DNA from: Thermalbibacter longus
Lineage (GTDB): Bacteria; Chloroflexota; Chloroflexia; Thermomicrobiales; Thermomicrobiaceae
Assembly (NCBI RefSeq): GCF_023806485.1
Contig: NZ_JAMSLR010000003.1
Span: forward strand, 124,001-188,000
DNA length: 64,000 nucleotides
Direction of reading: 5' to 3'
Positions 21,545 to 22,900 of the stretch are shown in pieces. The position numbers were made by a program, and so were the translations under genes. The notes below the pieces were generated by a model. That model ran no database searches. It was not told the origin of the DNA and saw only the letters and a list, made by a program, of their open reading frames with translations. Positions within the stretch are counted from its first letter, which is position 1, and every line of letters begins with the position of its first letter.

Positions 21545-22900
21545 TCAGACCTGCTCGGCCGCCTTGCGGGCGGCGATGAGCAAGGGATCCCAGACCGGCG
21601 AGAAGGGCGGGGCGTAGGCGAGATCCAGGTACATGAACTCGTCGACCCGCATCCCGGCGTGCAGCGCCGCCGCGACCACGTCGATCCGCTTGCCGGCGCC
21701 CGGGCCGCCGACGATCTGCGCGCCGAGTAGCCGGCCGCTCCCCTTCTCGGCCAGCAGCTTGACCACCATCCGCGCGGAGTCGGGGTAGTAGCGCGCTCGC
21801 GTGCGGTCCTCGATCCGGGCGACGCCGTACTCGAAGCCGAGCGCCTGAGCCTCGCGCTCGCTCAGCCCCGTGCGGGCGACCTCGGTCTGGTTGAACTTGG
21901 TGATGGCAGTGCCGACGACGCCTGGGAAGCGGGCGTAGCCACCACCGAGGTTGATGCCGCAGATCCGGCCCTGCTTATTGGCGGTGGTGCCGAGCGGGAT
22001 GTACGCTGGTCGCCGGCTCACCAGATGGAAGGTCTCTGCGCAGTCGCCGGCTGCCCACACGCCCGGGATACCAGTGCGCATCCGGTCGTCGATCCGCACG
22101 GCGCCGCTCTCGCCGAGCGGGAGGCCGGCCTCGGCCGCCAGCTCGCTGCGCGGCTGTACCCCTACCCCGAGGACGACCAGGTCAGCCGGGAGCGTCCGCC
22201 GGTCGGTCTCCACGGCTCGTACCTGGCCGCCGTCCGCGTGGAAGCCGGTCACGCGCTCTTCGAGATAGACCTTCACCCCCGCTTCGCGGAGGGCCGCCGA
22301 GACGAGCGCGCCCATGTCCGCGTCGAGCGTCCCCATCACCTCCGAGCCCAGCTCGACTAGCGAGACGTCCAGCCCGCGGGCGACGAAGGCTTCGGCCATC
22401 TCGATGCCGATGTAACCACCACCGACGATCACCGCCCGCTGCGGGCGCTCGTCCTCCACAATCTGGCGCAGGAGCAGGCCATCCGCCAGCGTCGCGACGC
22501 CATAGATCCCCCGGCTACGGGCGCCGGGTACCTCCAGCCACCGTGGGCCGGCGCCGGTCGCGTAGACGAGCTGGTCGAACGGCTCACGGTAGGTCGCGCC
22601 GTCCTCCAGGCGGCGCACGGTGACTGCACGCGCCGCGAGGTCGATAGCGACGACCTCTTGACCGGTACGGACATCGATGCCGCGGCGGCGGTGCTCCGCG
22701 GGCGAGCGGGCGATCAGCTCGTCTTCGTCGTCGACCAGACCGGCGACGTAATACGGGATGCCTCAGGCGGAGTAGGAGGTGTGCTGCCCACGCTCGAAGG
22801 CGATGATCTCCAGGTCGTCGCGCATCCGCCGGGCCTGCGCGGCCGCGCTCATCCCAGCCGCGTCGCCCCCGACAATGATCAGCCGCTCCTTCGTCGCCAT
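21545..22900 (-). CDS. CoA-disulfide reductase/NADH oxidase-like flavoprotein, probable selenoprotein
   Basis: 451 residues if codon 46 (TGA, 22763-22765) is read as selenocysteine. The family uses FAD and NAD(P)H and a single redox-active cysteine near residue 43 to reduce CoA disulfide, persulfides or oxygen. Visible: FAD site IVGGDAAGMSAA (about residues 9-20), SYSA-[Sec]-GIPYYVAGLVDD, the NAD(P)H site VGGGYIGIEMAEAF (about 157), the second FAD motif GVWAAGDCAE, and the C-terminal dimerisation end YLDLAYAPPFSPVWDPL. TGA stands exactly where the catalytic Cys belongs and the frame is intact on both sides. The ATG at 22900 has GGAGAGGGA upstream. An automatic caller would start at 22618 and lose the FAD site. 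A sequencing error or pseudogene is the alternative. Confidence 0.88.
22729..22748 (-). promoter_or_regulatory. Candidate bacterial SECIS stem-loop
   Basis: Read on the minus strand, CGTCG (22748-22744) plus CC pairs with GG plus CGACG (22733-22729), with a single bulged U at 22734. The apical loop is GGUCU (22741-22737), 21 bases after the TGA. Bacterial SECIS elements place a short stem with G or GU at the start of its loop about 16-37 bases downstream of UGA. The E. coli fdhF element has the same GGUCU loop and one bulged U, although there the bulge is on the 5' side. Confidence 0.7.
22763..22765 (-). other. In-frame TGA, probable selenocysteine codon 46
   Basis: The minus strand reads TCC GCC TGA GGC ATC CCG. 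Cys-containing relatives have S-x-x-C-G-[IM]-P at this place. A single base change from TGC/TGT to TGA explains the difference, and no frameshift or other stop occurs in the remaining 450 codons. Confidence 0.85.

Follow-up and report, generated by a model that had tools for sequence, protein, structure and literature searches.

Introduction

Selenocysteine-containing members of the CoA-disulfide reductase family have been described in other bacteria. For Geobacter metallireducens, PMC1794560 reported a selenocysteine-containing 'NADH oxidase' / CoA-disulfide reductase; PMC9312934 lists the enzyme as well, and PMC13188914 lists it with a UGxP motif. The G. metallireducens protein (WP_011365774.1, FAD-dependent oxidoreductase, TIGR03385) has UGxP at the position of the redox Cys, with a hairpin directly downstream. 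The other relevant system is the SECIS element of E. coli fdhF, whose sequence we checked in E. coli genomes; it lies inside the coding region, with a GGUCU loop 18 nt after the UGA and a bulged U near the loop on the 5' arm.

Here we analyzed a window, meaning a whole stretch of 64,000 nucleotides, from Thermalbibacter longus (Thermomicrobiaceae), which contains a gene of the same family as the Geobacter enzyme, likewise with UGxP at the redox Cys and a hairpin directly downstream. It differs from the Geobacter selenoprotein in its Chloroflexota host and in a TIGR03385 score below the equivalog cut-off. The gene is not homologous to fdhF, and the loop common to both partly reflects the codons for Gly-Leu. 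The comparisons below indicate that the hairpin almost certainly (probability about 0.95) acts as a SECIS signal for selenocysteine insertion at the UGA of a CoA-disulfide-reductase-type enzyme. In open-access papers on selenoproteins in connection with Sphaerobacter, with Thermomicrobia or with CoA disulfide reductase, no title or opening part of an abstract reported a Thermomicrobia case.

A flavoenzyme gene with an in-frame TGA

When the TGA is counted as a residue, the sequence from the ATG at 22900 to 21545 forms a single open frame with a 455-residue translation. The features of the locus are as follows.

21545..22900, minus strand: selenoprotein gene for a CoA-disulfide-reductase-like / NADH oxidase-like FAD flavoenzyme, with ATG at 22900 and stop codon TGA at 21547-21545
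22763..22765, minus strand: in-frame TGA, predicted to be read as selenocysteine, motif SYSA-U-GIPYY (UGxP), opposite the redox-active Cys in the alignments with 6ruz, 5l1n and 4fx9
22729..22748, minus strand: putative bacterial SECIS hairpin, from folding and orthologue comparison, with GGUCU as apical loop at 22741-22737, a bulged U at 22734 and the stem CGUCGCC / GG(u)CGACG

The translation contains the Pyr_redox_2 domain and the dimerisation domain Pyr_redox_dim, and its closest models are those of CoA-disulfide reductase. It matched the full length of the CoA-disulfide reductase equivalog model TIGR03385 with 440.6 bits, which is below the equivalog cut-off of 578.8 bits, and hence we named the protein CoA-disulfide-reductase-like only. 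The best solved relative, 6ruz, aligned over residues 8-450, nearly the full length. The Cys aligned to the TGA lies in SYGACGLPY in 6ruz and in SHAPCGIPY in 5l1n and 4fx9, and we take it to be the redox centre, as established for the family; the window gene has UGIP at this position, in agreement with the UGxP of selenocysteine-containing CoA-disulfide reductases. The part encoded upstream of the TGA includes the family's N-terminal FAD-binding motif, and GC content by codon position is similar on both sides of it. The product is predicted to be a CoA-disulfide-reductase/NADH-oxidase-type enzyme with selenocysteine in place of the redox-active cysteine, and its substrate is inferred. Standard gene calling, with TGA as a stop only, gives a 357-aa ORF (21545-22618, minus strand) from a GTG, without the N-terminal FAD-binding part and the selenocysteine.

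The hairpin downstream of the TGA

On the minus strand, GGCATCCCGTATTA separates the TGA (22765-22763) from CGTCGCC-GGTCT-GG(T)CGACG at 22748-22729. RNAfold folded this minimal 20-mer as (((((((.....)).))))) with -8.1 kcal/mol and 47% of the ensemble, which corresponds to 7 bp, a GGUCU loop and a single bulged U on the 3' arm. The sequence-only reading had described an fdhF-like hairpin of this shape 21 bases after the TGA; its pairs, loop and bulge were reproduced, except that it is the loop that begins 21 nt after the TGA; the stem begins after 14 nt. The hairpin codons are translated as Val-Ala-Gly-Leu-Val-Asp. Published constraints on bacterial SECIS elements comprise a loop of 3-9 nt, an upper stem of 4-16 bp, a loop spacing of 16-37 nt from the UGA, a minimum free energy of -7.5 kcal/mol or lower, and a G within the first two loop positions, mostly as GG or GU (PMC13188914). 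With a 5-nt loop GGUCU, a 7-bp stem, a spacing of 21 nt and -8.1 kcal/mol for the 20-mer, the hairpin lies within all of them.

The checks suggested along with that reading were folding of 22700-22765 and application of bacterial SECIS rules. The region folded as a whole was no better than its shuffles (z = +1.07), and the published rules that the hairpin passes are also passed after 197 of 431 codons (46%) of this GC-rich gene. A hairpin with its loop at a spacing of 20-23 was found after 34 of the 431 codons (8%), and the fold energy compared with synonymous recodings of the same protein, with codons resampled, gave p ~0.06. For the outer stem, the synonymous null did not discriminate on single sequences (null mean 4.2 of 5 pairs for the window sequence). 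The hairpin does not reach significance by itself; what makes it significant is the comparison of orthologues.

Comparison of TGA and Cys orthologues

The codon at the site was read in 111 loci, 37 with TGA and 74 with a Cys codon (TGC/TGT). The homologous stem was present in 34 of the 35 distinct TGA orthologues, from Thermomicrobia, Geobacteraceae, Syntrophus and others, versus 4 of the 74 Cys orthologues (Fisher 1e-22, kinship ignored). The full published rules were passed by 30/32 TGA and 31/74 Cys orthologues, and a loop at spacing 20-23 was found in 29/32 and 4/74, respectively. All TGA orthologues align gap-free, and the stem occupies the same columns in every TGA lineage; the Geobacteraceae orthologues have their stem columns in common with the window gene. 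The exception was a TGA orthologue from the same family (L017, genome G005), which forms only the inner 5 bp, with an A.C mismatch and -3.6 to -4.2 kcal/mol, and keeps the GGUCU loop. A TGA flagged in a class relative (G067) was rejected as it lies upstream of the gene start, the site codon there being Cys TGT.

Synonymous conservation among the TGA orthologues (167 conserved columns, TGA apart) was highest at two stem codons, Val59 (GTC in 35/35) and Val55 (GTC in 32/33); the third, Asp60 (GAC in 33/35), was level with the next best codon of the gene, Gln398 (33/35), against a mean of 0.58. Cys orthologues used GTC, GTG, GTT and GTA at Val59 in 19, 17, 9 and 1 cases. This comparison is made within the gene and thereby controls for relatedness. 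The outer pair of the stem was C-G in 14, U-A in 10 and U-G in 4 TGA orthologues, the next pair changed from G-C to A-U, and the covariation score of the stem was matched by 0 of 500 shuffles. In a phylogeny-aware pairing restricted to supported branches, the hairpin tracked TGA in 2-4 (mean 3.4) of 5 independent TGA/Cys contrasts and ran opposite in 0, five contrasts being too few to reach p 0.05. The stem thus passed the test that the sequence-only reading had set for an in-frame selenocysteine UGA with a bacterial SECIS, namely covariation and a difference between TGA and Cys orthologues. It is because the stem is TGA-specific, covaries and has synonymously constrained codons across orthologues that we favor the SECIS reading.

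Loop sequence and bulged U

The GGUCU loop, expected at the outset to be kept with the TGA, was not a conserved element. It occurs in 5/32 TGA and 5/74 Cys orthologues, in the latter by coding chance, which rules it out as a signature of selenocysteine, and other TGA orthologues have GGGUU, AGGU, GUCU or AGUU.

In 27 of 31 TGA orthologues the stem is uninterrupted because G20 of a Gly codon GGC forms a G.U pair with U29 (numbering from the TGA). The genus of the window and L017 have Ala GCC at this codon, and there C20-G28 and C21-G27 pair one step up, leaving U29 bulged and GGUCU as the loop. The 3' bulge therefore arises as the change from Gly GGC to Ala GCC breaks the G.U pair retained by the other TGA orthologues; in an orthologue from the same order (L022), which keeps the Gly, the stem is 8 bp long and the loop is GUCU. 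A single amino-acid replacement with the bulge as its side effect is the best reading, rather than a mirrored fdhF bulge, and SelB presumably tolerates it. The earlier view of a variant element with its bulge on the 3' side is thus correct as to the position and to a slightly variant SECIS, but in this family the bulged U is a local variant and no conserved feature for recognition. Compared with the Geobacter SECIS, the window element has Ala for Gly just before the loop, a shifted upper stem, the GGUCU loop and the 3' bulged U. It resembles the fdhF element in its loop, in a bulged U near the loop and in its place inside the coding region, and differs from it in the loop distance of 21 nt and in lacking the bulged U on the 5' arm that characterizes the fdhF type.

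Selenocysteine machinery and other candidate selenoprotein genes

The genome of the window (3.63 Mb) contains selA (E 2.8e-130), selB, selC and selD. The C-terminal part of its SelB aligns with and is homologous to that of E. coli, and selC, the tRNA-Sec with anticodon UCA, is located on a contig other than that of the window. Within the window, ARAGORN found no tRNA and an Rfam scan at gathering thresholds gave no match. The selD gene (L112, C1:375586-376518) has its own in-frame TGA, with GGUUC at the apex of a hairpin, and two Fdh-alpha genes (L117, L118) have in-frame TGAs followed by hairpins whose loop, GGUCU at spacing 18, matches that of E. coli fdhF. The two Fdh-alpha elements share the GGUCU loop with the window element and differ from it in spacing and in that no U bulges from the 3' arm of their core stems. 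A U stands exactly five bases before GGUCU in both of them and in the window (22746); it is paired, not bulged, and could be a coincidence. The selD and the two Fdh-alpha genes, each with a SECIS-like hairpin carrying GGU at the apex, would be annotated as broken.

Distribution of the TGA genes

TGA genes were found in Thermomicrobiaceae, one further family of the order, Geobacteraceae/Desulfuromonadaceae, Syntrophaceae and scattered others. Three Cys versions from Geobacteraceae/Desulfuromonadales (L033, L034, L038) are nested in TGA clades; L038 keeps a hairpin, likely a remnant SECIS after a recent Sec-to-Cys reversion. Of the 61 relatives examined, 46 had SelB, among them genomes of the same family with the Cys form. 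Loss of the machinery alone therefore does not account for the Cys genes.

Alternative explanations

The hairpin might be a by-product of coding, in that Val-x-Gly-x-Val-Asp written in GC-rich codons often folds, with the TGA unrelated to it. The frequency at which the generic rules are satisfied within this gene (46% of codons), the pairing of the outer stem in many recodings of the same peptide (4.2 of 5 pairs on average for the window sequence) and the GGTCT found in Cys orthologues as well all speak for this explanation. It is nevertheless very improbable, as such a by-product would not be expected to be kept in 34/35 TGA but only 4/74 Cys orthologues, to change in a compensatory manner in its outer pairs, or to have codons among the most synonymously constrained in TGA orthologues and free to vary in Cys orthologues. 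Still less credible is a nonsense mutation or an assembly error, leaving a pseudogene or a gene starting at the downstream GTG. Translation with table 11 does halt at the TGA and leaves the 357-aa GTG ORF, but the TGA recurs in an independent assembly (L026), in two genomes of the same genus (L013, L014) and in distant lineages, exactly at the redox Cys, and the FAD-binding motif sits before it. Synonymous and nonsynonymous changes within the genus numbered 13 and 2 (L013) and 10 and 4 (L014) upstream of the TGA, and 96 and 43 (L013) and 90 and 41 (L014) downstream over the gene as a whole, mostly synonymous on both sides; in the 59 codons directly after the TGA, taken alone, the changes were not mostly synonymous (8 and 9 in L013, 7 and 8 in L014).

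With the hairpin read as a SECIS, its origin can be considered separately. Selenocysteine may have been gained independently in Thermomicrobiaceae, which is compatible with the SECIS reading and would give an element in the same place with an origin other than that in Geobacter/Syntrophus. On the gene tree the two forms, TGA and Cys, are intermixed (9-10 changes, of which starred branches force at least four), and the Thermomicrobia element, with its bulged U and GGUCU, differs in register from the elements with G.U and CGGGUU or AGGU. Against this, the same gap-free stem columns recur in all TGA lineages, one ancestral selenocysteine gene with repeated Sec-to-Cys losses also fits, and the tree is unrooted, so that gain and loss are inseparable on it. 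We regard an independent gain as rather unlikely. Equally tentative is the broader possibility that Thermomicrobiaceae acquired, or remodelled, their selenoprotein with its SECIS independently of the Geobacter lineage, the Ala shifting the register of the upper stem and bringing the loop to the GGUCU type of the genome's own Fdh SECIS elements. If so, SECIS elements within one genome would converge on the loop preferred by its own SelB.

Proposed mechanism and implications

Comparison between genomes shows a conserved, TGA-specific stem together with the presence of the machinery, and from these SelB binding and selenocysteine insertion at the UGA are predicted. SelB, carrying GTP and Sec-tRNA(Sec), would use its C-terminal winged-helix part to bind the SECIS hairpin just 3' of the UGA in the mRNA, contacting the stem and the apical loop with its G. 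SelB would then deliver selenocysteine at the UGA in place of release-factor termination, after which the ribosome would melt the hairpin and read it as coding sequence. The product would be a flavoenzyme with selenocysteine replacing the redox-active cysteine.

A lesson for similar searches is that a hairpin after a TGA in a GC-rich genome is no evidence by itself. The present analysis changes the annotation of the window gene, which would otherwise be called truncated, and among the orthologues the SECIS varies naturally at one homologous site (G.U versus bulged U, several loops), a set of variants suited to probing recognition by SelB. The family already had selenium members in other bacteria; it is here extended to Thermomicrobiaceae with a slightly variant SECIS, which adds a Thermomicrobiaceae/Chloroflexota branch to the selenocysteine-containing CoA-disulfide reductases.
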